Source: Ruminiclostridium herbifermentans
Lineage (GTDB): Bacteria > Bacillota > Clostridia > Acetivibrionales > DSM-1351
DNA length: 64,000 nt
NCBI RefSeq assembly: GCF_005473905.2
Contig: NZ_CP061336.1
Location: 2,224,501-2,288,500, forward strand
Reading direction: 5' to 3'
Under the pieces are notes generated by a model, which was not told the DNA's origin, did no database searches, and was given only the letters and a program-made list of their open reading frames with translations. Positions 47,014-64,000 of this stretch are shown here, piece by piece; within the stretch, counting starts at the first letter, position 1, and each line of letters begins with the position of its first letter. A program made the translations under genes and the position numbers.

Positions 47014-47420
47014 GTTACTATTCAGCCTAGTCTATAAGTATTCAAATTTATCAATGACTTAATTCCAAAATAATTACATTAATTAGTATATACTTTTCAA
47101 TACATCTCTGTATATCCATAATTATTTCAATAAATAGTACGCGAGTGCAATATATATCTAATTGCGAGGCTCGGTTAGAAATTGATGCTAGAAATAATAG
47201 GTGAAACAAGTATTGCAGCCGACACACCTACATGATGTAGCTGTGAGTATTAACCCGAGACAAGGATGCCTTGTTAATACGGTCGGCGGAAGTGCTTGTT
47301 CTGCACTGCAATTATTTCAGCATCAATTTCGTGAGCAAGCAATAGATATATATTGTACGGGAGTACTATTTAAGCGGTTTAATATTTTGTATATAGTATT
47401 GACATAGGCTGAATAGTAAC
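47014..47420. mobile_element. 407-bp nested palindromic element with 16-bp terminal inverted repeats
   Basis: Ends GTTACTATTCAGCCTA (47014-47029) and TAGGCTGAATAGTAAC (47405-47420) are perfect inverted repeats. Inside, further segments pair in register: AAATAGTAC..CAATATATATCTA with TAGATATATATTG..GTACTATTT, GAAATTGATGCT with AGCATCAATTTC, and AACAAG..GCCGAC with GTCGGC..CTTGTT. A small hairpin GTATTAAC/GTTAATAC is at the tip. Flanks show a possible AATGT target duplication. No credible transposase; it looks like a non-autonomous element or a very large RNA hairpin. Confidence 0.65.
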
Positions 47421-47487: not shown

Positions 47488-47544
47488 TAATAAAAAGAAT
47501 TCATAGTAATCCTAGTATAAAAGTATGGAATTGGGGTGGGGCTT

Positions 47545-47703
47545 TTGAAAAATAGTGACATTAACAGAAGACTAGAAGAAGAAAATATAAAACTTTTATT
47601 GGACTATATAAATAAAATTAAGTATGGTTCTGTAACTGTAAATATACAGGATGGTAAAATTGTTCAGATAGAAAAAAATGAAAAAATAAGGATTAAAAAC
47701 TGA
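47545..47703 (+). CDS. YezD-like small protein (DUF2292)
   Basis: 52 residues from a TTG start; a GTG three codons upstream is an alternative, and the GGTGGGG ribosome site lies close to both. The C-terminal half, YGSVTVNIQDGKIVQIEK then EKIRI, is the hallmark of the YezD/DUF2292 family, which is often found near sulfur-assimilation genes. Function unknown; a small cytoplasmic protein. It has its own strong promoter with an operator-like dyad, and its stop codon lies inside a conserved leader/terminator element that recurs before the nifH-like gene 10 kb away. Confidence 0.75.
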   Translation: MKNSDINRRLEEENIKLLLDYINKIKYGSVTVNIQDGKIVQIEKNEKIRIKN

Positions 47704-47762
47704 CTAGACAACTAGAGGTTTTTGACATTTGCCTTGTGCAAATATCAAGACCTTTTTTTATA
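47697..47762 (+). promoter_or_regulatory. Conserved leader/terminator element, copy 1 (after yezD)
   Basis: The core at 47697-47722 (CTGACTAGA..ACTAGAGG) matches 58137-58162 in 25 of 26 bases. The CTAG..CTAG mini-hairpin overlaps the 5' arm of a terminator (AGGTTTTTGACATTTG with CAAATATCAAGACCT, then TTTTTTT). The two folds exclude each other, so transcription past this point could be conditional. Confidence 0.65.
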
Positions 47763-49043: not shown

Positions 49044-50078
49044 ATGGTGATAGGCGTAAGTGAAAGCAAGACTTTGGAGAATAAGAGATATCAAATAAAC
49101 ATTAAAAGTTGGAAACTCAGTAAGAATATGATCAATCAAATTAAAAAAATTCTCCCAATATTAGCAGTAGCAATAACTTTAATATGTCATTTATTCATTG
49201 AAGATTCCGGACAGCAAAAGAAAACTTCACAACCTTATTTTACATACTTTTTGATTACAGTCCTAGTTATATATGCTGTACTTTACATAATTTCTTTTTT
49301 CAATAAGAAAATAGATAAAAAAATTATATATAAGGGTGGCTTTTACGCAGGAGTAATATTCTTTCTAAATATATTAAATATAATCACTCTCAAATATGCA
49401 TTTCTTCCAAAATTGTTTTTCCCTTCGTTAGATAGGGTACTTGGTACCTTGGTTGAAGATAGGATATTTTTACTTGAATGTATTGTGTATTCACTAAAAT
49501 TATTATTTAAGGGATTTGTTTGCGGAGGAATTGTTGGATTTATAACAGGCATACTATTAGGATTTAGTAAGACTGCTGGCTATTGGCTAAACCCTGTTAC
49601 AAGAATACTTGGTCCAATACCAACAACTGCATGGGTACCCCTTGCATTATCAACTTTTCCTACTTCATATTCAGCAAGTGTATTTCTAATTGCATTTGCA
49701 GTATGGTTTCCAACAGCACTAATGACCAGCAGTGGTATTCACAATACTAGCAATGCTTATTTTGAAGTATCTAGAACACTGGGAGCTAGCACTTTATATC
49801 AGGTATTTAAAGTGGGAATTCCAAATGCTATGCCAAATATATTTCTCGGTATTTTTTATGGAACATGTTCATCATTTATTACACTTATGACGGCAGAAAT
49901 GGTGGGAAGTTCTTGCGGAATTGGATGGTATATAAACTGGCAGAAGCAAATGATGGTATATCCTGGAGTTTATGCAGGTTTGATAATTATAGCTGTGATA
50001 TGTACAACAATATTAACTTTATTGTTTAAGGTTAGGGATAGGATTTTGGTATGGCAGAAGGGAGTTATCAAATGGTAG
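49044..50078 (+). CDS. Sulfonate/taurine-type ABC transporter permease
   Basis: 344 residues: a long hydrophilic and membrane N-terminal part (about 110 residues, longer than usual for SsuC/TauC), then a BPD_transp_1 domain with the EAA-like loop EVSRTLGASTLYQVFKVGIPNAMPNI. The nitrate/sulfonate/taurine permease family shows the same GPIPTTAWVPLALSTFP segment. Ribosome site GGAAGGGG. Its stop overlaps the ATPase start by 7 bases. With that ATPase and the lipoprotein encoded at 53578 it would import a sulfonate, taurine or related organosulfur/nitrogen compound. Confidence 0.88.
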   Translation: MVIGVSESKTLENKRYQINIKSWKLSKNMINQIKKILPILAVAITLICHLFIEDSGQQKKTSQPYFTYFLITVLVIYAVLYIISFFNKKIDKKIIYKGGFYAGVIFFLNILNIITLKYAFLPKLFFPSLDRVLGTLVEDRIFLLECIVYSLKLLFKGFVCGGIVGFITGILLGFSKTAGYWLNPVTRILGPIPTTAWVPLALSTFPTSYSASVFLIAFAVWFPTALMTSSGIHNTSNAYFEVSRTLGASTLYQVFKVGIPNAMPNIFLGIFYGTCSSFITLMTAEMVGSSCGIGWYINWQKQMMVYPGVYAGLIIIAVICTTILTLLFKVRDRILVWQKGVIKW

Positions 50079-50857
50079 GAGAAATTGACATTAAAGATGT
50101 GGTTCGTATATTTGAAAATCCTGATTCAAAAGGAGAAGATATTGTAGCATTAAATAAACTGAGTTTAATAGTACAGCCAGGAAAGTTTGTATCGCTAATT
50201 GGCCCCTCTGGCTGTGGCAAATCTACACTTCTCAGACTAATTGCAGGGTTGGATATTCCAAATGAAGGAGAAATATTTCTAGATGGGAATAAAATAGTTA
50301 AACCCAGCTATGAAAGAGGGTTTGCATTTCAGGCGGCTAATTTATTTCCCTGGCTGACTATTAGAGAAAACATAGCATTTGGATTACGTGCAAGACATGA
50401 ATACAAGAAAAAGAAAGATGATGTAGATGAATATATTAATTTAGTAGGATTAAAAGGATTTGAAAAAGCCTATCCCCATCAAGTATCAGGTGGAATGTGT
50501 CAAAGAGCATCGTTGGCAAGAGCATTAGTAGGGCATCCAAAAGTATTATTATTAGATGAGCCTCTAGGAGCATTAGATGCATTTACAAGAATGAATATGC
50601 AGGATGAACTGCTAAGGATTTGGGAAGAACACAAAATGACAATGATTATGGTTACACATGATGTTGATGAAGCAATTTACTTGTCGGATCAAGTTGTTGT
50701 AATGTCACCTAGACCGGCAAAAATAGAAAAAATAATTGATATTGATTTGTCAAGACCAAGAGCCAGAAATCAAGATGCGTTCCTAAAATATAGAACAGAA
50801 ATACTTGAAATACTACATTTTGGAGGAGAGATTAAGGCTCCTGATTACTTCTTATAA
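50072..50857 (+). CDS. Sulfonate/taurine-type ABC transporter ATPase
   Basis: 261 residues from the ATG at 50072 (AAGGGA upstream; an ATG seven codons earlier lacks a site). Walker A GPSGCGKST, signature VSGGMCQRA, Walker B VLLLDEPLGALD and the switch His in THDVDEAIYL. Belongs to the SsuB/TauB/NrtD group. Energises the permease with which it overlaps. The C-terminal IDLSRPRARN stretch is typical of this group. Followed by a 320-base gap before the DUF4418 module. Confidence 0.92.
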   Translation: MVGEIDIKDVVRIFENPDSKGEDIVALNKLSLIVQPGKFVSLIGPSGCGKSTLLRLIAGLDIPNEGEIFLDGNKIVKPSYERGFAFQAANLFPWLTIRENIAFGLRARHEYKKKKDDVDEYINLVGLKGFEKAYPHQVSGGMCQRASLARALVGHPKVLLLDEPLGALDAFTRMNMQDELLRIWEEHKMTMIMVTHDVDEAIYLSDQVVVMSPRPAKIEKIIDIDLSRPRARNQDAFLKYRTEILEILHFGGEIKAPDYFL

Positions 50858-50907
50858 GAGAGTTTCTGTTAGTCTAACTTTTTATGGTTCAAATCTAAAA
50901 TATTTTG

Positions 50908-50969
50908 TTAAACTCGAAAAAGTTTAGAGTTGTAAAAATTTTACTAAACTCGAAAAAAGCTCAGAGTTA
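50908..50969 (+). repeat. Two tandem small hairpin repeats
   Basis: TAAACTCGAAAAAG..AGAGTT occurs twice, 36 bases apart, each able to fold as AACTC..GAGTT. It lies between the ATPase gene and the DUF4418 gene; otherwise the 50858-51176 gap is AT-rich. Confidence 0.45.
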
Positions 50970-51176
50970 TAAATACCTTGGACTCAAAGCCTTTGATTTT
51001 AGTTAGCATTAAAAATGCATTACATATCTAAATTTTAACTGTTACAGATATATGATTGTTCGAAATTAAAATGCAAATTATGAGCAACATGAGAATTATT
51101 TATTTTTATCCAGTTCAAAGAGGATAAGAAAATCATTAATTTAAATAATAATCAAGAAAGGTTTATTGGTATATAT

Positions 51177-51617
51177 ATGAAGAACAGATTAATTACTTCG
51201 CTTATTTATTTAATAACTGCTTTATTATTGATAGTTGGCCCAAATACAATTTTCAAGGTATGTGAGGTTATGGAAAAGCCAATGAAATGCTACTATAGTA
51301 CAAAAGCTGTGGTTGGTATCGCAATTATTTTAATAGCTATAGCCATTTTGTATTTTTTTACAAGAACCATCAGAGAAAGCTTATTACTTACTATTGCTGT
51401 AATACCAATTGGTATTATAACTCTATTAATACCAAGCATTTTGATTGGCGGATGCTCTATGAAAACAATGGCATGCCAAGCTGTAAGCTTTCCGGCTATA
51501 TATGTGATTTCAGTATTACTAATAATTATTTCAGTATTTAACATTTTCTATTTAATAAAAAGTCATAAAAGAAATTTGGTGAAGTTAAATGAGGCAGAAC
51601 AGAAAAATTACTATTAG
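51177..51617 (+). CDS. DUF4418 family membrane protein
   Basis: 146 residues with four hydrophobic segments. The family hallmarks are visible: C-x4-K-P-M-K-C in the first loop (VCEVMEKPMKCYY) and GGCSMKTMACQ in the third, so four cysteines that may sit on the outer face and bind a metal. Function is unknown in the literature I know. Its end overlaps the FtsX-like permease by 29 bases, so the three genes 51177-53483 form one translationally linked module with an ABC ATPase. Confidence 0.75.
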   Translation: MKNRLITSLIYLITALLLIVGPNTIFKVCEVMEKPMKCYYSTKAVVGIAIILIAIAILYFFTRTIRESLLLTIAVIPIGIITLLIPSILIGGCSMKTMACQAVSFPAIYVISVLLIIISVFNIFYLIKSHKRNLVKLNEAEQKNYY

Positions 51618-52806
51618 GAGTATTGCATTAAGTAATTTGCTATATCAGCGCTTTCGCACAATGATTATATTCGTATTATTGGTGGTTACTACTATTGCAT
51701 TATTTCTTAGTGAGTTTTTAACTTTAAGCATGAGAGAGGGAATCGAAGAAACTGGCGAAAGAATAGGCGCGGATATTATTGTCGTACCAGATACTTTTGT
51801 TTCAAGCATTGAAAATGCCTTGTTTTTAGGCAGACCCTGTACTGTAAATTTTGATAGAAATTGGTTAGACAAAATTGGTGCAGTTGAAGGTGTTGATAAG
51901 GTTAGTTCACAACTTTATTTGGCATCTTTAAGTTCTGATTGCTGTGACAGTCCAATGCAGCTAATTGCATTTGATATTAATGCAGATTTTACTGTAGTAC
52001 CTTGGCTGGAAAGAGATGGCATTACTTCACTAAAAGATGATGAAATTATATTGGGAACTAATATAACTAAAGAGATCGGAGATAAAATTAAGTATTTTGG
52101 AAGAGAATTTACAGTTGTTAATGTATTAGAAGAAACGGGAATGGGATATGACAACAGTGCGTTTATCAGCTATGAGGCTGCTTTTGAAATAGCAAAGGAT
52201 CCTGTTTATCAAAGGCTATTACCTTTTAGAAGTGATAGCAATGTAATTTCCATGGTTTTACTGAATATTGCTGAAGGATATGGACTGCATAAGGTTAAAG
52301 AAAATATTGAAAAAAAATATGGAGATAAAGAAATTGCTGTTTATTCAACAAATCAATTGTTAACAAAATTTTCAGATAGTCTTACAAATATTAATATATA
52401 TGGAACTTTGATAAAGGTACTGTTTATACTGTTAGCCACTGTATCATTATATGCAATATTCTCTATAACAATATATTTAAGAAGGCATGAATTTGGCAGT
52501 ATGCTATCAGTAGGTGTCTCCAGAAGAAAAATTATTAATATACTTGTATGGGAAATGTTTTATGTTGTAGTTATTGCAAGCATAGTTGGGATTTTAATTG
52601 TTTGCGGAGTTATTTTTCCCTTTCATATGCAAATAAAAAGTCTGTTTACTATTCCTTATTTGTTACCAAGTGCAGGAATTATTGTTTCTATGAGTTTTAA
52701 AATGTTTACTATCAATGTATTGGTATGCGTGGCTGCATCATTTCAATTATTTTGGAAATTCAGTAAGATGGAAGCGCAAGAACTCATAAAGGAGGAAAAC
52801 GGATGA
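51589..52806 (+). CDS. MacB/FtsX-type ABC transporter permease
   Basis: 405 residues. One N-terminal membrane helix, a large outside domain (about 60-260, MacB periplasmic-core-like with ADIIVVP and GRPCTVNF), and three C-terminal membrane helices with the FtsX signature YLRRHEFGSMLSVGVSRRKI. Such permeases couple ATP hydrolysis to movement of their outer domain rather than to import through the membrane. Overlaps DUF4418 at its start and the ATPase by 4 bases (ATGA) at its end. Confidence 0.88.
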   Translation: MRQNRKITIRSIALSNLLYQRFRTMIIFVLLVVTTIALFLSEFLTLSMREGIEETGERIGADIIVVPDTFVSSIENALFLGRPCTVNFDRNWLDKIGAVEGVDKVSSQLYLASLSSDCCDSPMQLIAFDINADFTVVPWLERDGITSLKDDEIILGTNITKEIGDKIKYFGREFTVVNVLEETGMGYDNSAFISYEAAFEIAKDPVYQRLLPFRSDSNVISMVLLNIAEGYGLHKVKENIEKKYGDKEIAVYSTNQLLTKFSDSLTNINIYGTLIKVLFILLATVSLYAIFSITIYLRRHEFGSMLSVGVSRRKIINILVWEMFYVVVIASIVGILIVCGVIFPFHMQIKSLFTIPYLLPSAGIIVSMSFKMFTINVLVCVAASFQLFWKFSKMEAQELIKEENG

Positions 52807-53483
52807 TACTTAGAGCTGTAAATATTAGAAAGACATTTGATAGGGCTGATAACAATACTTGTGGGATAATCGATGTGAGTATTACCATAAGACCTGCGGA
52901 ATATCATTGCATTTTTGGAACCTCTGGAAGTGGAAAAAGTACTATACTTAATATTTTGGCAGGTATGCTAGCCCCATCTAGCGGAAGTGTTTATTTAGAT
53001 AATATGGACATTTATTCTAATAAAAAATTTATGAGAACAAGTATGAGAATAAATTCTATTGGATATATAATGCAAAGCGCAAGTCTTCTAAGCAATATTT
53101 CTGTATATGATAACATTATATTTCCTTTAGAAATAGCAAAAAAACAAGTTAATTACAGGCAAGTTGAAGATATTATAAACAAATTGGAATTAAGCCATCT
53201 AGTTGATGCGTATCCTAAAGAACTTTCGGGAGGTGAATATAAAAGAGTCACTATTGCTAGAACAATTGTTAGTAACCCGCAGATAATACTTGCTGATGAA
53301 CCTACAAGTAACCTAGATGAAAAAAATGCAAATATTATCAGAAATATTTTTGAAGATTTATATTTAGAGGGAAAAGGCATTGTAGTAGCAACGCATGATA
53401 TGAAATTTATTGAATCACATCACATTATTCATAACATAAGAAATGGAAAATTGTACTATGCGCAAAAGGTTTGCTATGGATAA
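52803..53483 (+). CDS. MacB/LolD-type ABC transporter ATPase
   Basis: 226 residues. Walker A GTSGSGKST, signature LSGGEYKRV, Walker B IILADEPTSNLD, and the THD switch. Typical of the MacB/LolD group that pairs with FtsX-like permeases. Start overlaps the permease stop (ATGA), with AAAGGAGG just upstream. The cargo may be a lipoprotein, peptide or metal-related factor. The sulfonate-type lipoprotein gene follows 95 bases downstream, which suggests the module is part of the same operon. Confidence 0.9.
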   Translation: MILRAVNIRKTFDRADNNTCGIIDVSITIRPAEYHCIFGTSGSGKSTILNILAGMLAPSSGSVYLDNMDIYSNKKFMRTSMRINSIGYIMQSASLLSNISVYDNIIFPLEIAKKQVNYRQVEDIINKLELSHLVDAYPKELSGGEYKRVTIARTIVSNPQIILADEPTSNLDEKNANIIRNIFEDLYLEGKGIVVATHDMKFIESHHIIHNIRNGKLYYAQKVCYG

Positions 53484-53577
53484 TGGATAGAATACAAAAT
53501 AATATAAAAAGGAGGGGTGAGTCCATGTTCATATTTTAATAGAGTTCAATAAAAAATATAGGGCATGGATGTAATTT

Positions 53578-54660
53578 ATGAAACTTAAAATTTTAATTAA
53601 GAAAAGCAGTTTATTGCTATTAATGGTGGTGTTAGTTGTTAGTACAGTAATAGGTTGTGGAAAAAGCACCGCAGAAACCGCCAGTAAAGAAGCTGATAGT
53701 AATGCAGAAGTGAAGATAGGATTTGCAAAGGGTTCTTTATGCTTAGCACCAATTCATCTTGCTTATTTAAACGGGTATTTTGAAGAGGAATTTAAAGCAG
53801 CAGGTGTTTCATGGAAAATGGAAGAGGTGGATTTATCCCAAGCAGCTGAATTATTAGCTGCAGGTAAAATTAATGCTGCTGTTGGTTTGACAGCAAGCTT
53901 AATTCAGCCAATTGATAATGGATTAGATATTACATTTACTACTGGGTTACATACAGGATGTACCAAATATTATGTAGCAGCTGATTCAGGAATTAACTCG
54001 GTTGCTGATTTGAAAGGTAAAAAAATTGGTGTTCCAGGGCTTTCTGATTCTTCAACAATGAATATTAAAAGAAAGCTTAATGATGTAGGAATTGGAGTTA
54101 CAACTGATAACATGGAAGTGACTTTAGTACCATATGCTTTAACCGATTTACCATTAGCCTTGGCAAATGGGGCAGTAGATGCGGTTGCACTTCATGATCC
54201 TGTTGCATATAAAGCAGAAGAAGAATACGGCTTTAAAAAGATTCTGGATACTGCGATAGATGAAAAATTCTTAGGAGAGTATTGCTGTGAATCATATGTA
54301 ACAATAGATTTAGCAACTAAAAATCCAAAGGCGGCAGCAGCGTATACTAGAGCAATGCAGAAGGCAGCTGCATTTATACAGGCCAGTCCAAAGGAAGCAG
54401 CAAAAATTCAAATTGATAGTGGGTATTGCTCTGGAGATTTGGAGACAAATGCTCAATTACTAGACTCATATAACTATTCACCATCAGTTAGCGGTGGACT
54501 GGAAACCTTTAAGGCAGCAGCATTGGAGTTAAAAACAATTGGGGATTTAAAGCAAGATACTGATGTAGAAGCCTTTTCGTCAGTTCATTTTACAAAATTA
54601 GAGGGAGTTCCAGACAGTATAACTTATGATACAGCAGCGAAAAAATTTGTTTCAAAATAA
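53578..54660 (+). CDS. Sulfonate/taurine-type ABC substrate-binding lipoprotein
   Basis: 360 residues. Signal peptide with lipobox VIGC (Cys 27), then an NMT1/SsuA-type binding domain: LCLAPIHLAYLNGYFEE, AAVGLTASLIQP, GKKIGVPGLSDSS, GAVDAVALHDPVA. The double Cys in EYCCESYV is unusual. It should deliver substrate to the permease/ATPase at 49044-50857, although the DUF4418 module separates them. Anchored on the outer membrane face. A second lipoprotein of the same type starts at 63754, so two related ligands may be used. Start preceded by a weak site. Confidence 0.88.
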   Translation: MKLKILIKKSSLLLLMVVLVVSTVIGCGKSTAETASKEADSNAEVKIGFAKGSLCLAPIHLAYLNGYFEEEFKAAGVSWKMEEVDLSQAAELLAAGKINAAVGLTASLIQPIDNGLDITFTTGLHTGCTKYYVAADSGINSVADLKGKKIGVPGLSDSSTMNIKRKLNDVGIGVTTDNMEVTLVPYALTDLPLALANGAVDAVALHDPVAYKAEEEYGFKKILDTAIDEKFLGEYCCESYVTIDLATKNPKAAAAYTRAMQKAAAFIQASPKEAAKIQIDSGYCSGDLETNAQLLDSYNYSPSVSGGLETFKAAALELKTIGDLKQDTDVEAFSSVHFTKLEGVPDSITYDTAAKKFVSK

Positions 54661-56480: not shown

Positions 56481-57434
56481 ATGCCATTTTTTGTGAAGGA
56501 AATGCATATTTCCTTGATGTTCTTGTGCGAAATGTTGGGCATGGGTATATTTATGGTGACAAAAACAAATAATTATGAAAATTTAAAGCTTTCCCATCCG
56601 TGCTTTGGTGGACACAAAAATAATAAAGGCAGAATTCATCTTCCAGTTAGTCCAGGATGTAATATACAATGTAAGTTCTGCGACAGAAAGATTAATGATG
56701 ATGAGCAGCGACCAGGGGTTACTTCAAAGGTAATTACTCCGGAGGAAGCGCTTGGTGTTATTAAAAGAGCATTAGAACTATGTCCTGAGATTACAGTTGT
56801 AGGAATAGCAGGTCCAGGTGATACTCTTGCCACTGATAATGCAATAGAAACCTTCAGGCTGGTAAAAGAACACTATCCTAATTTGCTTAAATGTATGAGT
56901 ACAAATGGCCTTCTGTTATATGAGAGAGCAGACGAGATTATTGAAGTTGGAATTGATTCTCTTACTGTAACAGTTAATGCAGTTGACCCAGAGATAGAGG
57001 CTAAGCTTAACTCAGCAATTGTATATCATAGCAAAAAGTATGAGGGAGTAGAGGCAGCTAAAATTCTTATTGAAAATCAGATAAAGGGTATTGAAAAAGT
57101 AGCTAAAGCTGGAATTACTGTTAAAGTAAACAGTGTATTGGTTCCAGGAATAAATGATAATCACATTGAAGAAATTGCAAAGATAGTAAGTAAAGCCGGT
57201 GCTTCTATCTATAATATTATTCCACTCATTCCACAGTTTGAATTAGCTGATATTCCTGCTCCGACCTGTGCACAAATTGATGCTGCAAGAACCAAAGCAG
57301 GTGAGTACATAGATGTGTTCAGACATTGCCAAAGATGTCGAGCTGATGCAATAGGCGTCCCTGGAGAAAGTGATTTTGGAGATCAGATATATCAAAGAAG
57401 AATCTCTCTTAAAGAAACTTTTTCTCATGGATAA
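56481..57434 (+). CDS. NifB-like radical SAM protein
   Basis: 317 residues; the start is uncertain (an ATG 24 codons in, before TKTNNYENLKLSHPCF, is also possible; neither has a strong site). NifB hallmarks: SHPCF, GRIHLPVSPGCNIQCKFCDR (C-x3-C-x2-C for the SAM cluster), RPGVTSKVI, VGIAGPGDTLA, KVNSVLVPGINDNH, and the C-terminal CQRCRADAIG. NifB joins two 4Fe-4S units with carbide from SAM to make NifB-co. It lacks the fused NifX domain, which is instead encoded next at 57527. It implies a carbide-containing Fe-S cofactor in the nitrogenase-like enzyme downstream. Confidence 0.9.
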   Translation: MPFFVKEMHISLMFLCEMLGMGIFMVTKTNNYENLKLSHPCFGGHKNNKGRIHLPVSPGCNIQCKFCDRKINDDEQRPGVTSKVITPEEALGVIKRALELCPEITVVGIAGPGDTLATDNAIETFRLVKEHYPNLLKCMSTNGLLLYERADEIIEVGIDSLTVTVNAVDPEIEAKLNSAIVYHSKKYEGVEAAKILIENQIKGIEKVAKAGITVKVNSVLVPGINDNHIEEIAKIVSKAGASIYNIIPLIPQFELADIPAPTCAQIDAARTKAGEYIDVFRHCQRCRADAIGVPGESDFGDQIYQRRISLKETFSHG

Positions 57435-57526
57435 ATGAAAAATATTTTTGAAAAAAGAATTTATGAGAAGAGTTTTTTAAAATGGAAAATTGAAAGAATA
57501 GACGTTTTGGTCTGAATGGAGGAAAC

Positions 57527-57889
57527 ATGTCATATAAGATAGCAGTAGCATCCACTGATGGTAAAGTAGTAAATCAGCATTTTGGAAGAGCAGATAAGTT
57601 TTATATTATTGAGGTTAATGATGAGGATAAGTTTGAAGCCATTGAACTTCGAAAATTGCTTCCAATATGTCAAGGTGGAGATCATGATGAGGATGCAATG
57701 CAGAGAAATGTAAATTTATTATCTGATTGTGAATTTGTTCTGGTAAGCAGAATTGGTAAAATTGCTGAAAATGCCTTAAACCAGCAAGGAATAAGCGTAT
57801 ATATTATACCTGACATTATAGAAAATGCTGTTACAAAATTAATTTCATATGTGAAAATAAATAAAATGATTAATGATATTGCAAGATAA
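57527..57889 (+). CDS. NifX/NafY-like iron-molybdenum cofactor-binding protein
   Basis: 120 residues. DiNase_FeMo-co family (PF02579): KIAVASTDGKVVNQHFGRADKFYI, CQGGDHDEDAMQRN and DCEFVLVSRIGKIAENAL are its signature blocks. The family binds NifB-co or FeMo-co and shuttles it. Stands between NifB-like and NifH-like genes, so it probably carries the NifB product to the NifD/K-like complex, which has no NifEN here. Ribosome site GGAGG. Followed by a 520-base gap with the promoter and attenuator of the nifH-like gene. Confidence 0.88.
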   Translation: MSYKIAVASTDGKVVNQHFGRADKFYIIEVNDEDKFEAIELRKLLPICQGGDHDEDAMQRNVNLLSDCEFVLVSRIGKIAENALNQQGISVYIIPDIIENAVTKLISYVKINKMINDIAR

Positions 57890-58071
57890 ATGAAATCAAG
57901 TTTTATTTTCAAGTTATAGTAATACTATTTTATTTCAATTTAGCTTGAGGAAAGTTAAAACACTTTATATAGCTTATTGGGATTAGTTCTAAGTAAGAAA
58001 GTCAATGAATAAAAAAGTGAATATGCCACTATAAAGGTTATATTTTTTTAACTAAATTCATACAAATCATA

Positions 58072-58100
58072 TTGACAAACTATGAAAAGAATAGTATTAT
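58072..58100 (+). promoter_or_regulatory. Promoter of the nifH-like operon
   Basis: TTGACA (58072-58077), 17-base spacer, TATTAT (58095-58100). The transcript would first meet the leader/terminator element at 58137. Confidence 0.8.
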
Positions 58101-58136
58101 TTCTATAACGCAGTAATAAATTAAATTTATATTATG

Positions 58137-58198
58137 AAACTGACTAGAAAACTAGAGGTTTTGGAAAAGGATTATATTTTCTGAAACCTCTTTTTTTA
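58137..58198 (+). promoter_or_regulatory. Conserved leader/terminator element, copy 2 (before nifH-like gene)
   Basis: Core 58137-58162 matches 47697-47722 in 25 of 26 bases. The terminator is AGAGGTTT (58154-58161) with AAACCTCT (58184-58191) then T7. CTAG-AAAA-CTAG just before it shares two bases with the terminator arm, so the folds compete. It lies between the promoter and the nifH-like gene, as an attenuator should. The 58199-58411 stretch after it is AT-rich. Confidence 0.7.
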
Positions 58199-58411
58199 TA
58201 AAGAAACATTAGATGACTTGTTGTCAATTTAGTATCCATAAAGATAAAAGTCAATTGAGATGATATGCATTCAAATCAAAAACTTAAAATTATTAATCTT
58301 AGCAAATTCACAGCAATTACTGTTGATGCAGCTTTAACAATTTTCAAATACATTAGTGGTTAATAGTGTCATATAAGAAGATAACCGCTAAATAAAGAAA
58401 GGAGAATTTTT

Positions 58412-59287
58412 GTGAAGAAGAAAATAAAGCAAATTGCAATTTATGGAAAAGGAGGAATTGGAAAATCAACTACTACATCAAATTTAAGCGCAGCTTTGTC
58501 TGAAATGGGACTAAAAGTAATGCAATTTGGGTGTGACCCAAAAAGTGATTCTACAAATACATTAAGAGATGGTAAATATATTCCAACTGTATTAGACACA
58601 TTAAGAGAGAAAAAAATTGTTAAAGCACATGATGTTATATTTGAAGGCTTTAATGGCATTTACTGCGTTGAAGCAGGGGGGCCAGCTCCAGGTGTAGGAT
58701 GTGCAGGAAGAGGAATCATAACTGCAGTTGAATTATTTAAGCAGCAAAAGGTTTTTGAAGAATTAGACTTAGATATAGTTATTTATGATGTGTTAGGTGA
58801 TGTTGTGTGTGGTGGATTTGCAGTGCCTATTCGTGAGGGAATAGCTGAACATGTATTTACTGTATCCTCATCAGACTTTATGTCTGTTTATGCTTCAAAT
58901 AATCTGTTTAAAGGAATCAGTAAATATTCCAGTTCTGGCGGAGCGTTATTGGGCGGTGTAATAGCAAATTCTATGGGAAGTCCATTCTCAAAAGAAATAA
59001 TTGATGATTTTGTAAATAAAACACAAACTCAGATTATTGAATATGTTCCTCGATCTGTCACAGTAACTCAAAGTGAGTTGCAAGGAAAGACAACTATTGA
59101 GGCAGCGCCAACTTCTAAACAGGCAGATGTCTATCGGTCACTAGCAAGAAAAATCGCAGGCCATGAAGAGTCAAAAACGCCTGCTCCTCTTGATACAGTA
59201 GAATTGAGAAAATGGGCTGCAAAATGGGGTGATTATCTCTTAAGTGTTGAACAGGGAAATATTACATCTATTGGGGCATCAATATAA
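58412..59287 (+). CDS. NifH-like nitrogenase reductase homologue
   Basis: 291 residues (GTG start, AAAGGAG upstream). P-loop GKGGIGKST at 12-20; switch I region GCDPKSDST; the two 4Fe-4S ligands C97 (GCAGRG, with R100) and C133 ([14 protein letters not shown]). These define the NifH/BchL/CfbC/MarH superfamily. It would form a homodimer and pass electrons with ATP hydrolysis to the NifDK-like complex. The C-terminal 20 residues diverge from true NifH. First gene of a set with cysK and nifK/nifD-like genes. Confidence 0.92.
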
Positions 59288-59305
59288 TTAAAGGAGTGTA
59301 AGAAT

Positions 59306-60235
59306 ATGTGTAAAATAGCAGAAAGTCTTGTTGATTTAATAGGAAAAACACCACTTTTGAAATTAAACAAATATTCAAAGGACAAAGACTTATCAGGTAA
59401 TTTAATTGGTAAACTGGAATATTTCAATCCGCTTGGAAGTGTAAAGGACAGAATAGCATTTGCAATGATTACAGATGCAGAGAAAAGAGGAATTATTAAT
59501 GAGGAGTCCACAATTATTGAACCTACAAGTGGAAACACAGGAATTGGTCTTGCATTTGTTGCGGCAGCTAAAGGTTACAGAATTATTCTTGTAATGCCAG
59601 ACACAATGAGTGCTGAAAGAAGAAGGCTACTTAGTGCATTAGGAGCTGAATTAGTATTAACTCCAGGTGAACAGGGTATGAAAGCTGCTATCAGAAAAGC
59701 AGAAGAATTAAATGCACAAATTGAAAATTCATTTATTCCTCAGCAATTTGATAATCCGGTAAATCCACAGATTCATAGGGAGACAACTGCTCGAGAGATA
59801 ATTGAAGATACTGATGGAAAGGTTGATATATTTGTTGCAGGAGTTGGAACAGGAGGAACAGTAACTGGAGTGGGTGAGGAACTCAAAAAATATAACCCAG
59901 ATATAAAAATTGTTGCTGTTGAGCCATATGATTCCTCTGTCCTGTCTGGTGAGGCTCCCGGACCTCATCCTATTCAGGGAATTGGTGCAGGTTTTGTTCC
60001 AAATATTTTAAATAGGAATGTAATTGATGAAATATTTAGAGTAAAAAATAAGGAAGCAATTGAAGCTTCTAGAGAGGTCGCTAGAAAAGAGGGCCTTTTG
60101 GTTGGAATTTCTTCAGGTGCTGCATTATTTGCTGCTACTCAGATTGCTAAAAGAAAAGAAAATGCTGGGAAAAACGTTGTTGTTTTATTACCAGATACAG
60201 GAGAAAGGTATTTATCAACTAAATTGTTTTCATAG
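59306..60235 (+). CDS. cysK: Cysteine synthase (O-acetylserine sulfhydrylase)
   Basis: 309 residues. PLP lysine in [11 protein letters not shown] (K near residue 49), [11 protein letters not shown] loop, GTGGTVTG phosphate cup and SSGAALFAA near the end. Converts O-acetylserine plus sulfide to cysteine. Cysteine synthase is not part of nitrogen-fixation operons of this kind, so its place between nifH-like and nifK-like genes is a strong hint that the cluster releases sulfide. Start follows AAAGGAGTG. Spaced 18 bases after the nifH-like gene; a 230-base structured gap follows. Confidence 0.95.
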
Positions 60236-60415
60236 TCAATTATTAACGGGCTAGAAACGGTCTAAAATATATTTTTTGGTATGTAGCTAAAGCTATATTT
60301 TAGAGAAAGCATAATATAAACCAATTGATTAAAGCCAGCTTTAAAGCACTATTTGCCTAAATAAAAAGCGCATTGCCTTGAAATTCTATGTTAAATGGCT
60401 TTAAGCAATAATTGA
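60236..60415 (+). promoter_or_regulatory. Possible three-way-junction leader before the nifK-like gene
   Basis: Nested perfect complements: TCAATTATT/AATAATTGA (60236-60244, 60407-60415) closes the region; CTAAAATATA/TATATTTTAG (60262-60271, 60294-60303) and TTAAAGCCA/TGGCTTTAA (60329-60337, 60396-60404) form two arms inside. Stems are AT-rich, so chance is possible. The ribosome site is just downstream. Confidence 0.35.
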
Positions 60416-60465
60416 TACTTTGGAAATACTATTAAAATAATTGATATTTGGAAAGGAGTAATTGC

Positions 60466-61800
60466 ATGTCACATATAGAAAGGCCAAGATTTTCATGTAT
60501 GCTAGGTGGTGTTTTAGCAACCCTCAGTGCTTTACCTAAAACTGTTCCCATAATACATGGAGCGCAAGGTTGCGGAGGTAGTTTGGCAAATGCATATTCG
60601 CTAGGGGGCTACTTGGGAGTAGGATATTGTGGAGGATCTGGAGCACCTAGTTCTAATATAGGAGAGTCAGACATAATTTTTGGTGGCGTAGACAGGTTGA
60701 CTACAGAAATCAAAAATACATTTGAAGTAATGGATGGGGAATTATATGTGTTAACAACCACTTGTATGACTGATATTATCGGTGATGATGTCAAGAGTGT
60801 GTTAAACGAAATAGGTGAAAAAGAAAAGCCAATTTTGTTCATTGATACAGGAGGGTTCCAAGGCAATTCATATTATGGGTATTCTAAACTCATAGAAGTG
60901 CTTTTTGAACAATACATACCCAAAAAAGAAACAAAGAAAAAGAATTTAGTAAATATTTTAGGCTTAGTTCCAGGCTACGACCCATTCTTTAGGGGAGACT
61001 TAGAGGAAATTCAAAGAATACTTGCACTTGTGGGTGTAGAGGCCAATACTTTTTTCACACATGACCAAACTCAAGAAAATATCCTTAGTGCAGGAGAAGC
61101 CTCTTTGAATATTGTACTTTCTAGGTTATACGGAGTAGATGCTGCTAAAGCAATAAAAGAATCCCATGATATTGATTATTTAATTACAGACTTGCCAATA
61201 GGAAATCTGGCAACTGTTGATTTTATTAATCAAGTTGCTGAAAAGTTACAGCTAGACAAGGATAAAGTTAAAGCTGTACTAGAGAAAGAATCAAGCAGCT
61301 ATTATAAATACGTTGATAGGGCGACAGATGTAATTGCCGATACTGATTTTCAAAATTATGCGGTTGTAATTGCTAATGGAACTGAGGCTCTGCCGTATGC
61401 AAAATTCTTAGACAATGAAATTGGTTGGATTCCAGGTTATGTTTTTATAACAGATGAATTGACAGAGGACCAAAAAGCTACAATTGTAGAGGCATTTGAA
61501 AAAATAGAATTTGCAGAAAGACCAGAACTTGTTTTTGAAACAGATACATATCGAATTCAGCAGTATATAGAACAAAACAATCCTCAGTTCAAGTCAGACA
61601 AATATTACGAAACCTTTTCTCCAGCATTTGTCTTGGGAAGTACCATAGATAGAAAATTATCAACAGTACTCAATGGAAATTTATTGTCTATAAGTTTTCC
61701 TATAATAAACAGAATAGTTATAACAAAAGGGTATGCAGGATTTTATGGCGGATTAAATCTCATAGAAGATTTAATTACTGCACAAATTTCAGGAAGGTGA
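60466..61800 (+). CDS. NifK-like subunit of a nitrogenase-like enzyme
   Basis: 444 residues from the ATG at 60466 (AAGGAG 6-7 bases upstream). The beginning RPRFSCMLGG, IIHGAQGCGG and TTTCMTDIIGDD gives C11, C36 and C100, the positions that hold the P-cluster in NifK; an extra C55 lies in GYCGG. The later TGGFQGNSYYGY corresponds to the TPSFxGSH region. It is shorter than NifK of nitrogenase (about 520), as in group IV homologues. Expected as the beta half of a NifDK-like heterotetramer with the protein encoded at 61806, whose start overlaps its stop region. Confidence 0.88.
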   Translation: MSHIERPRFSCMLGGVLATLSALPKTVPIIHGAQGCGGSLANAYSLGGYLGVGYCGGSGAPSSNIGESDIIFGGVDRLTTEIKNTFEVMDGELYVLTTTCMTDIIGDDVKSVLNEIGEKEKPILFIDTGGFQGNSYYGYSKLIEVLFEQYIPKKETKKKNLVNILGLVPGYDPFFRGDLEEIQRILALVGVEANTFFTHDQTQENILSAGEASLNIVLSRLYGVDAAKAIKESHDIDYLITDLPIGNLATVDFINQVAEKLQLDKDKVKAVLEKESSSYYKYVDRATDVIADTDFQNYAVVIANGTEALPYAKFLDNEIGWIPGYVFITDELTEDQKATIVEAFEKIEFAERPELVFETDTYRIQQYIEQNNPQFKSDKYYETFSPAFVLGSTIDRKLSTVLNGNLLSISFPIINRIVITKGYAGFYGGLNLIEDLITAQISGR

Positions 61801-61805
61801 TAAAT

Positions 61806-63383
61806 TTGACTAATACAAATAAGGTTGAAAAACAAACTTCAGTTGTTTTTGATGTGAACTTTGATTCAAAATTCCCCGAAAGTAGAGAAATTAGCCGTCG
61901 TACTGGCTTTGCCTATGGTGGTTGCACCAGTAGTTTAACAAATTGTGCCCAAAAGGGGTGCTTACAAAACTGCGATAGAGAATTTTCACAAGCCTCTATT
62001 TGTCAAATGACGGTATCCACATTAATATCTTTTTCTGTAAAAGACTCAGTAGTTATCTTGCATGGACCTGTTGGATGCGGTTCACAAAGTCATATTATAG
62101 ATTTTAGTATAAGGGCCTACGGCGCAGCACGCGGTGTAAAAATGGAAGGAGCAAGATGGTTCAGCACGAATCTTACAGAGGCAGACGTAATTTCAGGTGG
62201 GGAAGAAAAACTAAAAGCAACTATTTTAGATGCAGACAAACGATTCAGACCAACGGCAATTTTTATTCTGACATCATGTACACCATCAATCATAGGTGAT
62301 GATATTGATGAAGTGGTAAATCAGCTGCAAAGTGATGTGGCTGCAACATTGGTGCCATTACACTGTCCCGGCTTTAAAGCAAAGGTTTTCTCTTCTGCTT
62401 ATGATGTTGTTTACCATGGTATTTTACAGAAATTTAAATTTGAGCCAATTCCATATGTAGATTACTATCCTTTTGATAAAAATGATAAGGATTATGAACT
62501 GAAGGTACAGCAATATAATTACAAAAAGAGCCGTACAGTAAATCTATATAATGCATGGTCAATTGGGCCTGCTGATGAAGCAGAAATTAAGCGACTATTA
62601 GAAGCCATTGGACTAAATGTTCAGATTTTTGTGGAATTTAAGGAACCGGATGAATGGAGGCATATTACAGAGGCAGCATTAAACGTAAGCTTCTGTCATG
62701 TACATGATGTATATTTCCTTGAATTCTTAAAGCAAAAGTTTAATATGCCGTATATTTTACCAACTATCCCAGTAGGGCTTGGCCCAACTGCTAAATTTAT
62801 ATTAGAAATAGCAGAATTCTTTGGTTTAGAAGAACAAGCAAAGAAAATTATCGAAAAGGAAGAAGCTAAAGTACTTGCTGCTTTAGAGCCAATAAAAGAA
62901 AAAGTAAGAGGTAAAAGAGTTCTTATAAGCGGAGGTTATTTAAGGATTGGTGCCACTGGCTTATTGGCAAAGGAATTGGGCATGGAAGTGGTTGGTTTTA
63001 GAAACTTTAACTATGATTCCTTCGGAAATGAACTGTTTAGTGAAATAGAGGAAAAAATTGGGGATGTTTCTAATAGTATTTCAAATCAGCCATCTGAATT
63101 GGTTAATGTTCTTAGAAAATTAAAACCCGATATAGCCATTTCACATCCAGGTGTTGGCGTGTGGGTTACTAAGTCAGGAATACCTTCCATTACATTATTT
63201 GCACAAAGATTTGCTTTCTTTGGATACAGAGGGGCTTATGATTTATCTAGAAGAATTGCACGAACTGTTTCTAACCCTAATTATTCAAAAAATCTAGGCA
63301 GAAATGTTGAACTGCCATTTAAGAAAGAATGGTATGAAAAGGATCCATATCACTATATTGTTGATAGTAATTTAAATGAATAA
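61806..63383 (+). CDS. NifD-like subunit with Cys-rich insertion
   Basis: 525 residues from TTG at 61806 (AGGAAGGTGA upstream); a GTG at 61797 overlapping the nifK-like stop is the alternative. HGPVGCGSQS (C91) and TSCTPSIIGDDID (C158) match P-cluster ligands of NifD. Where NifD has GCAYAG this protein has GFAYGGC (C40), followed by an insert with C47, C52, C56 and C66. SFCHVHDVYF (C297) matches the cofactor-binding Cys region, but no counterpart of the MHSWDYSGPYHG histidine is visible (LFAQRFAFFGYRG instead). Catalytic subunit of an unknown reductase, probably sulfur-related. Confidence 0.85.
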   Translation: MTNTNKVEKQTSVVFDVNFDSKFPESREISRRTGFAYGGCTSSLTNCAQKGCLQNCDREFSQASICQMTVSTLISFSVKDSVVILHGPVGCGSQSHIIDFSIRAYGAARGVKMEGARWFSTNLTEADVISGGEEKLKATILDADKRFRPTAIFILTSCTPSIIGDDIDEVVNQLQSDVAATLVPLHCPGFKAKVFSSAYDVVYHGILQKFKFEPIPYVDYYPFDKNDKDYELKVQQYNYKKSRTVNLYNAWSIGPADEAEIKRLLEAIGLNVQIFVEFKEPDEWRHITEAALNVSFCHVHDVYFLEFLKQKFNMPYILPTIPVGLGPTAKFILEIAEFFGLEEQAKKIIEKEEAKVLAALEPIKEKVRGKRVLISGGYLRIGATGLLAKELGMEVVGFRNFNYDSFGNELFSEIEEKIGDVSNSISNQPSELVNVLRKLKPDIAISHPGVGVWVTKSGIPSITLFAQRFAFFGYRGAYDLSRRIARTVSNPNYSKNLGRNVELPFKKEWYEKDPYHYIVDSNLNE

Positions 63384-63425
63384 TAAAGGAATGGGCAGTA
63401 CATATTTTGCATGGAATGTTTTTAA

Positions 63426-63513
63426 AGTATGTTAATTAATATATGTCAATTTTGGTTTACCCAAATTTACCCAATAATTTAGATGATGCGAGTATGTTAA
63501 TTAATATATGTCA
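63426..63513 (+). repeat. 23-bp direct repeat after the nifD-like gene
   Basis: AGTATGTTAATTAATATATG plus TCA at 63426-63448 and again at 63491-63513, 65 bases apart. May be regulator sites for the following lipoprotein gene. Confidence 0.6.
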
Positions 63514-63530
63514 CTTTAGGCCCATTATTT

Positions 63531-63552
63531 CCAGGTTTTTTACCTGGAAAAA
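63531..63552. other. Small hairpin
   Basis: TTTCCAGGT, TTTT, ACCTGGAAA, without a T tract. Together with a GGAGGAA..TTCCTCC hairpin (63621-63647) it may end the nifD-like transcript. Confidence 0.45.
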
Positions 63553-63620
63553 GAATGCTTTTATCGTATCTTTTAATTTCAGATTTGATTCTTATGATTT
63601 TCTGATTTGATTCTTACGAA

Positions 63621-63650
63621 TGGAGGAAACAGTTATAATTCCTCCTTCGT
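63621..63650 (+). terminator. Terminator-like hairpin before the last lipoprotein gene
   Basis: GGAGGAA, 10-base loop, TTCCTCC then TTCGT. The stem is good but the T tract is short. Confidence 0.45.
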
Positions 63651-63753
63651 ACTATTTAGTTTATCCCAATATATTTCTGTTATATTATCAATAAAATTCT
63701 CAGTGTGTTTCATTATGTTTTTATTTGGTGAAGCGGAAGGAATGTGAGTTCAT

Positions 63754-64000
63754 ATGAAAATACATACTAAAAGACTAATTTCTATTATATTATTGCTGGT
63801 ATTTGTTTTAAGCATATCTGCTTGTGGAGGTGAGAATGAAAGAAAAGTCAGCAGTTCCTCGCAAAAAAATGTAGGAACTCTAAAGGTAGCATGGTTTCCT
63901 GCAACTATTAAAGCTGCACTGACCAGTACTGCATATAGCCTTGGCTATTTTGACGAAGAAGGTGTAACCGTTGAGTGTGAGACCTTACAAAATGCAGCTG
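63754..64000 (+). CDS. Second sulfonate/taurine-type ABC substrate-binding lipoprotein, cut by window edge
   Basis: 82 codons are visible. The signal peptide has a lipobox-like SISAC (Cys 22), then TLKVAWFPATIKAALTSTAY and LGYFDEEGVTVE, typical for NMT1/SsuA proteins. It lies 370 bases after the nifD-like gene, in the same orientation, suggesting that the substrate imported is that of the nitrogenase-like enzyme. Ribosome site AAGGAATGTGAG is about 8-12 bases off. The remainder is beyond the window, where permease and ATPase genes would be expected. Confidence 0.85.
   Translation, partial: MKIHTKRLISIILLLVFVLSISACGGENERKVSSSSQKNVGTLKVAWFPATIKAALTSTAYSLGYFDEEGVTVECETLQNAA

Follow-up and report, generated by a model that had tools for sequence, protein, structure and literature searches.

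A nitrogenase-like operon with cysK in Ruminiclostridium herbifermentans and its possible role in sulfide release from organosulfur compounds

The DNA analyzed here, hereafter the window, is a stretch of 64,000 nt of the Ruminiclostridium herbifermentans genome (NZ_CP061336.1, positions 2,224,501-2,288,500, forward strand), whose last part carries a nitrogenase-like gene cluster that may serve sulfur assimilation. Coordinates are window positions, and all window genes, the leader copies and the promoter-like site described below lie on the plus strand; L-numbers designate loci and G-numbers the genomes compared, L010 being the stretch that continues past the window end and C1 a contig of the own genome. 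Six genes follow one another at 56481-63383, encoding NifB-like, NifX-like, NifH, CysK, K and D proteins. The NifB-like radical S-adenosylmethionine (SAM) protein (56481..57434; TIGR01290, 288.7 bits, under the cut-off of 343.65) has no NifX domain, and its HPCFGG, CNIQCKFC and CQRCRADA motifs align with similar stretches of the NifB encoded elsewhere in the genome; we take these to be the cluster-holding stretches of NifB. It is followed by a NifX-like cofactor carrier (57527..57889; PF02579, 70.3 bits), a NifH-like Fe protein with a GTG start (58412..59287; TIGR01287, 406.4 bits, over the cut-off of 394.35) and the O-acetylserine sulfhydrylase CysK (59306..60235; TIGR01139, 457.5 bits, over the equivalog cut-off of 350.95). 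The gene for the K subunit, with a TTG start as called (60448..61800; PF00148, 216.7 bits; best Protein Data Bank match MarK, 9d9u_C, 227 bits), overlaps by 4 bases that of the D subunit (61797..63383; PF00148, above cut-off). The beginning of a substrate-binding lipoprotein gene (63754..64000) then opens an SsuABC-type transporter set that continues outside the window (L010:255-3113). Gene positions and profile matches thus bear out the gene row and lipoprotein described in an earlier note on this DNA. The note had also claimed that nifE and nifN are lacking from the window, which holds as well, because a PF00148 search of the window returned two matches only, D and K.

Although D and K score above the PF00148 cut-off, both remain below every nitrogenase equivalog cut-off. 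This is illustrated for D by 172 bits with TIGR01862 (cut-off 486), 132.5 with nifD (654), 116 with VnfD (823) and 99.7 with AnfD (874). Nor were the cut-offs reached for CfbD (53 bits, cut-off 268), BchN (55, 420), BchB (85, 490) or BchY (30, 425). In direct sequence comparison, D scored 237 bits to MarD, the D subunit of methylthio-alkane reductase (Mar), versus 109 to the best nitrogenase, and its predicted fold (mean predicted local distance difference test score 79.2, predicted template modelling score 0.80) has the Mar structures 9fmg_A and 9d9u as nearest neighbors. D trees were computed from 75 rows (quick) and from 53 rows (careful), 22 of the 75 having been dropped as near-copies or long branches. 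In the 53-row tree, with support given as ultrafast bootstrap/SH-like approximate likelihood ratio test, the window D falls into a clade of its own, named W (99/96), and within it into a core subclade (100/100), outside both the clade joining Mar and S-type rows (100/100) and the Nif clade (100/100); in the 75-row tree, two rows, one labelled S and one unassigned, belonged to none of the groups. An approximately unbiased test on the 53-row set compared core and Mar rows constrained together against all others, a constraint that also splits their sister groups and keeps the comparison from being a clean one. Neither tree includes sequences of NfaD, IsrD, CfbD or Bch, so that W could coincide in part with a group IV subgroup already described. 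The D tree proposed in the earlier note hence places the protein outside Nif and MarD, as expected, while CfbD and Bch are set apart by profile scores rather than by the tree; Isr was judged by its published ligand pattern, no Isr sequence being compared. N2 fixation and a CfbD or Bch function were rejected on profile scores, the loop-II His described below and gene linkage. Altogether, the separate clade supports the earlier suggestion that the W-type enzyme is a nitrogenase-like reductase distinct from Mar and outside the true nitrogenases.

Active-site residues were compared in a D alignment of 60 rows (38 W, 20 Mar or S, 2 Nif), from which rows shorter than 420 amino acids, such as the incomplete D of L024, were left out. 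Residue numbering and roles follow the description of Mar in PMC12552129, which, like the other articles cited by PMC number, was available in part. In the window D, Cys69, Cys94 and Cys161 occupy the P-cluster columns, and Cys300 and His450 the cofactor columns; the protein also has Arg383 and the signature pair His303-Asp304. The corresponding residues Cys66, Cys91, Cys158, Cys270 and the loop-I His429 (Mar numbering) are kept in all 38 W rows. Among the 34 W-type K rows, the three P-cluster cysteines of K are present in 33, 34 and 34, a gap accounting for the single miss. Arg428, which together with His429 was proposed as the Mar hallmark in the accessible part of PMC12552129, is missing from every W row (38/38), whereas 19 of the 20 Mar or S rows keep it. 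Conversely, an arginine aligned with that of the GGSR motif of the NifD of the same genome is found in 38/38 W rows and in 1/20 Mar or S rows. This arginine (Av Arg359) presumably lines the FeMo-cofactor. W rows also have a Cys-x-x-His-Asp signature, whose His and Asp are present in 38/38 W rows and in 0/20 Mar or S rows. In the core rows (13/13), Phe, Tyr and Asn stand in place of Mar Trp195, Phe199 and His375. Finally, the column of the NifD loop-II His (His442) is a gap in 38/38 W rows, some His lying within five columns in 7 of them.

Core loci were defined by at least 67% identity to the window D, which gave 14 loci: 12 of the 18 found in one D genome scan, L061 and the window itself. The 18 scan loci come from metagenome-assembled genomes (MAGs) labelled Bacillota, Ruminococcus, Treponema, other spirochetes, Planctomycetota and Candidatus Adiutrix; roe deer rumen is named in the title of one, and most others are, as we would guess from isolate names, from termite guts. 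A cysK gene directly precedes K in 11 of the 14 core loci, and the three remaining contigs (L020, L021 and L024) start 553, 1003 and 1409 bases before D, too close to tell. A binding-protein gene lies within 8 kb in 12 of the 14, L024 showing none. The survey therefore agrees with the earlier expectation that cysK and SsuA-superfamily genes are conserved neighbors. In L013 and L022, nifH-cysK-K-D-ssuABC are consecutive, with gaps of -4 to 32 bp. MetY, URO-D or corrinoid genes were seen within 8 kb at none of the 14 core loci, some of whose contigs are short. The core locus L016 (524-7510) differs in its transport genes: in place of the usual transporter, a peptide-type ATP-binding cassette (ABC) transporter stands together with an amidohydrolase immediately upstream of cysK, a clue to a different sulfur source. 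A K-D fusion suggested by a 938-amino-acid frame in L023 was rejected, as tblastn places K in another frame (8637-9980). Among the 31 sister W rows, some of which share a contig, CysK occurs within 8 kb in 19, and URO-D or corrinoid genes in 14. URO-D methyltransferases or corrinoid proteins adjoin D/K in L065, L068, L070, L074, L075, L076, L078, L080, L119, L120 and other sister loci, several of which also have CysK. This gene content suggests that sister W enzymes may free methanethiol, which would then be demethylated to sulfide.

The core type is sparsely distributed. With few candidates scored per genome, it was found in one of 398 genomes of the phylum besides the own genome, and none beyond the own genome was seen among 291 genomes of the class; a 41% relative is nevertheless present in the genus of the own genome. 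The family of G677 (the Treponema MAG with L016) was represented by 195 genomes, of which 60 encode a W-type D at E<=1e-90, five being of the core type. Taken together, the patchy core distribution and the carriers in the G677 family indicate gene transfer. No core-subclade member was found among plasmid records, where the best match had 30% identity.

Several other nitrogenase-like loci accompany the cluster in the R. herbifermentans genome. At about C1:288-302 kb lies a nif cluster with nifH, two nifI, D, K, E and a fused N-B gene, as well as nifV-like and modAB-like frames named by eye. A second operon (L010:3658-10569) follows the downstream transporter and encodes NifH, CysK, D, K, a divergent CysK and NifX; its D is of the S type, which keeps the Arg-His hallmark and forms its own clade beside Mar. 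A third D/K pair, about 0.7 Mb away and beside MetY and a LysR regulator, is of the Mar type: its D scores 639 bits to MarD of R. rubrum and agrees with it in 13 of 13 listed columns. Besides, a plasmid of Treponema saccharophilum JCM 32279 (pTS2, 330-348 kb; L111) carries cysK, a radical SAM gene, a NifX-like gene, nifH and two D/K pairs, and this species could be a test organism for the S type.

Upstream of the cluster, the earlier note had placed a complete transporter of the same type as the downstream one. A permease, an ATPase and a binding protein are indeed present at 49044-54660, but the set is interrupted by DUF4418, FtsX and LolD genes. The SsuC/SaoP-like ABC permease (49044..50078; SaoP model, 99.4 bits, under the cut-off of 295) has relatives adjoining related D genes in L025, L026, L029 and L077, and is followed by an SsuB/SaoA-like ABC ATPase (50051..50857; SaoA model, 269.8 bits, under the cut-off of 360). 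Then come a DUF4418 membrane protein (51177..51617; PF14387, 99.2 bits), mirrored after D in L077, an FtsX/MacB-like permease (51589..52806; PF02687, 42.3 bits), also found near related D genes in L067, L073 and L077, and a LolD-like ATPase (52803..53483), named by eye from its sequence, with relatives near related D genes in the same three loci. The substrate-binding lipoprotein of the NMT1/SsuA superfamily (53578..54660; PF09084, 74.6 bits) closes the set. The label "sulfonate/taurine-type" given to both transporters found no support in that form. With the curated SsuA_fam model, this binding protein and the other one score 75.9 and 46.7 bits, both under the cut-off of 163.5, and the ATPases and permeases also fall below every SsuABC or TauABC cut-off shown, their best-scoring models being SaoA or ntrCD for the ATPases and SaoP for the permeases. 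Solved relatives of the two binding proteins are weak and mixed: one matches an unnamed ABC binding protein, and the other a sulfonate-binding protein, THI5/THI13 proteins and others. A sulfonate substrate is thus suggested at the level of the transporter superfamily only. As for the downstream set, transporters 60-78% identical to it sit directly after D in L013 and L022, and it is therefore most likely part of the window operon.

Two copies of an attenuator-like leader were found in the window. Copy 1 (47700..47757; GACTAGACAACTAGAG followed by a terminator hairpin and T-run) begins at the end of a small DUF2292 gene with a GTG start (47536..47703; 55 amino acids; PF10055, 59.8 bits, cut-off 22) that lies upstream of the transporter set. 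Copy 2 (58140..58195; GACTAGAAAACTAGAG with a strong terminator hairpin and T-run immediately behind it) lies between nifH and a promoter-like TTGACA-17-TATTAT site (58072..58100), the latter called by consensus scan alone in a region with fewer such sites than its own shuffles. Leaders with GACYRGAAAACYRGAG also occur at L013:447, L022:6634 and L077:4383, and in L080, L119, L121, L124 and other loci. Among 58 genomes of the order, 10 have the pattern GACYAGAAARCYRGAG, at 12 sites in total, and the reversed control gave no site. A 175-amino-acid frame of unknown kind follows one of these sites; the other 11 precede W-type nifH, MetY, URO-D, corrinoid, S-type D or transporter genes. Five of the 12 were already known when the order-wide search was made (those of the window, L119, L121, L124 and a copy of L013), and six of the seven newly found ones precede genes of these kinds. 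A wider pattern yielded 31 sites in 22 of 398 genomes of the phylum versus 6 control sites, several of the 31 falling within genes or preceding genes that are unrelated or unknown.

Across the loci compared, 33 of 46 unique sites are intergenic with a T-run, and a stem of four pairs is possible in all 33, whereas none of the four sites with a stem mismatch is intergenic with a T-run. In 20 of the 33, a gene of the kinds named above lies within 1.5 kb, in a sample partly chosen for those genes. A looser pattern gave 32 sites, 14 of them with four pairs versus a shuffled mean of 5.7. Paired base changes (Fisher 5e-5 and 6e-8, the rows not being independent) suggest an RNA hairpin, whose 3' strand also begins the terminator stem in some leaders, e.g., L165 and L169 (by eye). 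The GACYRGAAAACYRGAG hairpin fused to an intrinsic terminator is hence a candidate new attenuator RNA, and the leader may mark the regulon to which the window cluster belongs. No Rfam family matched the leader, and searches against Rfam gave no match at E<=0.1 in the window from 48000 on. Two microRNA matches (24.8 and 23.8 bits) remained far below their cut-offs of 100 and 78; one coincides with the L184 leader (E 0.67), which was taken as chance. Apart from this, a borderline TwoAYGGAY RNA match (47176-47332; 44.8 bits versus a cut-off of 43) lies upstream of the DUF2292 gene and leader copy 1, and two tandem leaders in L190 (G147, C19:38707-38827) precede a gene that looks by eye like that of the SAM synthetase MetK, which hints at a wider sulfur/methionine regulon.

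From these observations, we consider it somewhat probable (about 0.58) that the window encodes an ATP-driven, two-component nitrogenase-type reductase for sulfur assimilation, which would free sulfide for CysK from an organosulfur compound that the cell imports. A transporter of the SsuABC superfamily would bring in a small organosulfur compound, while NifB and NifX, judging by homology, would build and carry an [Fe8S9C]-type cluster. The latter would sit on Cys300 and His450 of D, the ligands found by alignment, beside a P-cluster held by six D/K cysteines. Electrons would be supplied by NifH, as in its homologs, the C-S bond would be cleaved at the cluster with release of sulfide, and CysK, an enzyme identified by profile, may then join this sulfide to O-acetylserine to give cysteine, a coupling that gene linkage suggests. 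The idea of the earlier note, a sulfur-salvage enzyme cleaving C-S bonds, is thus right in outline, with substrate and product still putative.

The earlier preference for sulfide over methanethiol fits CysK, the lack of MetY near core loci and the fact that PF01077, the family of siroheme sulfite and nitrite reductases, has no member in 12 of 15 core genomes, many of them drafts (it is present in G000, G678 and G683); it is nonetheless a deduction, and several findings weigh against it. In another set of carriers of W, S or Mar-type genes, mostly of the sister type, 13 of 15 genomes have PF01077. In the G677 family, PF01077 is found in 19 of 60 W carriers versus 27 of 135 other genomes (Fisher p 0.10), i.e., without depletion, and in view of this control the missing sulfite reductase is weaker proof that the product is sulfide. 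Moreover, the own genome encodes an AsrC-like protein (135.8 bits, under the cut-off of 324.1) beside frames identified by eye as cysD, cysN and cysH, so that sulfite could be used there. Since CysK is also a neighbor in sister loci with URO-D or corrinoid genes, its presence does not necessarily imply sulfide release by D/K itself. As far as their drafts show, many hosts could not use sulfite via a known siroheme enzyme, but the trait is unlinked to that loss.

An Isr-like function, in which the enzyme frees sulfite from a sulfonate and a sulfite reductase then makes sulfide for CysK, accords with the adjoining SsuA-superfamily transporters, as ssuCAB serves Isr in R. capsulatus (PMC11423573), and with the AsrC-like protein. 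According to the accessible part of PMC11423573, however, IsrD retains a single P-cluster cysteine out of three and lacks Cys275, and IsrB and NifB fall into separate groups, whereas W rows keep the cysteines and the window radical SAM protein is NifB-like; with no PF01077 protein in 12 of 15 core genomes, we regard this function as unlikely, though ahead of the other alternatives. That Mar-like thioether cleavage to methanethiol takes place here, CysK being a neighbor for other reasons or fed by methanethiol demethylation, is less probable still. MarD and MarK are the nearest solved relatives, the URO-D and corrinoid proteins of sister loci could demethylate methanethiol, and MarHDK-like genes occur with such methyltransferases (PMC10418091, in part). 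Nevertheless, core rows (13/13) lack Arg428 and have Trp195, Phe199 and His375 replaced, URO-D, corrinoid and MetY genes were seen within 8 kb at none of the 14 core loci (some on short contigs), and the genome has a separate pair beside MetY that matches MarD throughout the listed columns.

The cofactor and P-cluster ligands and NifB would also suit an NfaDK-like alternative nitrogenase (group IV-A, fixing N2 without NifEN); for Endomicrobium, N2 fixation in the absence of NifEN, presumably via NfaDK, has been reported (PMC9147875, in part). Against this stand the separate nif cluster of the same genome, the loop-II His gap (with the nearby His in 7 of 38 rows noted) and the linkage to cysK; in a comparison that included no NfaD sequence, we consider this improbable. 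We give the least credence, and very little, to the view that D/K is no catalyst but a cofactor scaffold or maturase serving the neighboring enzymes of the S and Mar types: D/K pairs occur as several paralogs in one genome, a situation remarked on for other species in PMC3464626, and another pair adjoins the window cluster, but the importer and cysK accompany D/K where no second pair was seen, e.g., L013 and L022, and the Arg383 and loop-I His positions are kept in 38/38 W rows. Returning to sulfide release by a W-type reductase, a much more specific version, in which a sulfonate or other oxidized organosulfur compound is reduced fully to sulfide in one [Fe8S9C] active site, without a siroheme sulfite reductase, by a system that gene transfer has carried into anaerobes from several phyla and whose expression a new attenuator RNA controls, is doubtful, and we would rank it between the Isr-like and Mar-like functions. 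If sulfide release is correct, it would represent a new use of nitrogenase-type chemistry, with a broader role of 8Fe-carbide clusters in C-S cleavage, and would reveal where anaerobic communities, e.g., those of guts, obtain part of their cysteine sulfur unnoticed. In any case, nifH and nifDK genes of this sort should not be read as a sign of N2 fixation.

The accessible literature describes two characterized nitrogenase-like enzymes that serve sulfur assimilation, Mar, which was produced in R. capsulatus (PMC12552129), and Isr (PMC11423573), and our search of an open-access library gave no description that we recognized as the W clade or the leader. The window system resembles MarBHDK of R. 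rubrum (9FMG, 9D9U; PMC12552129) in its subunit set, the six P-cluster cysteines, the Cys270/His429 ligands, a NifB-type partner and the tie to sulfur amino-acid synthesis. Unlike it, W forms a separate clade without Arg428 (and, in the core, without Trp195, Phe199 and His375), has the added Cys-x-x-His-Asp and the nitrogenase-type Arg, and the window operon has CysK instead of MetY plus an SsuABC-type importer. With IsrBHDK of R. capsulatus it shares HDK genes with a radical SAM gene and an SsuABC-type importer, in a context of sulfur assimilation. The Isr pattern as published, i.e., a single P-cluster Cys, no Cys275 and a partner apart from NifB, with sulfite as product (PMC11423573, in part), is not that of the window proteins. 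MarHDK-like (group IV-A) genes are reported with mlp methyltransferase clusters in the available part of PMC10418091; sister W loci likewise encode URO-D and corrinoid proteins, in some cases together with CysK or MetY, whereas such genes were seen near none of the 14 core loci. Finally, linkage of Cys275-bearing nitrogenase-like genes to O-acetylhomoserine sulfhydrylase or cysteine synthase was pointed out by Dos Santos in 2012 (PMC3464626), and a cysteine synthase beside group-IV nifKD of the termite spirochete Pillotina corrugata was noted in 2026 (PMC13067680). Beyond what these two sources describe in the parts available, the present analysis adds the W clade, its ligand pattern, the transporter of the operon and the putative regulon.

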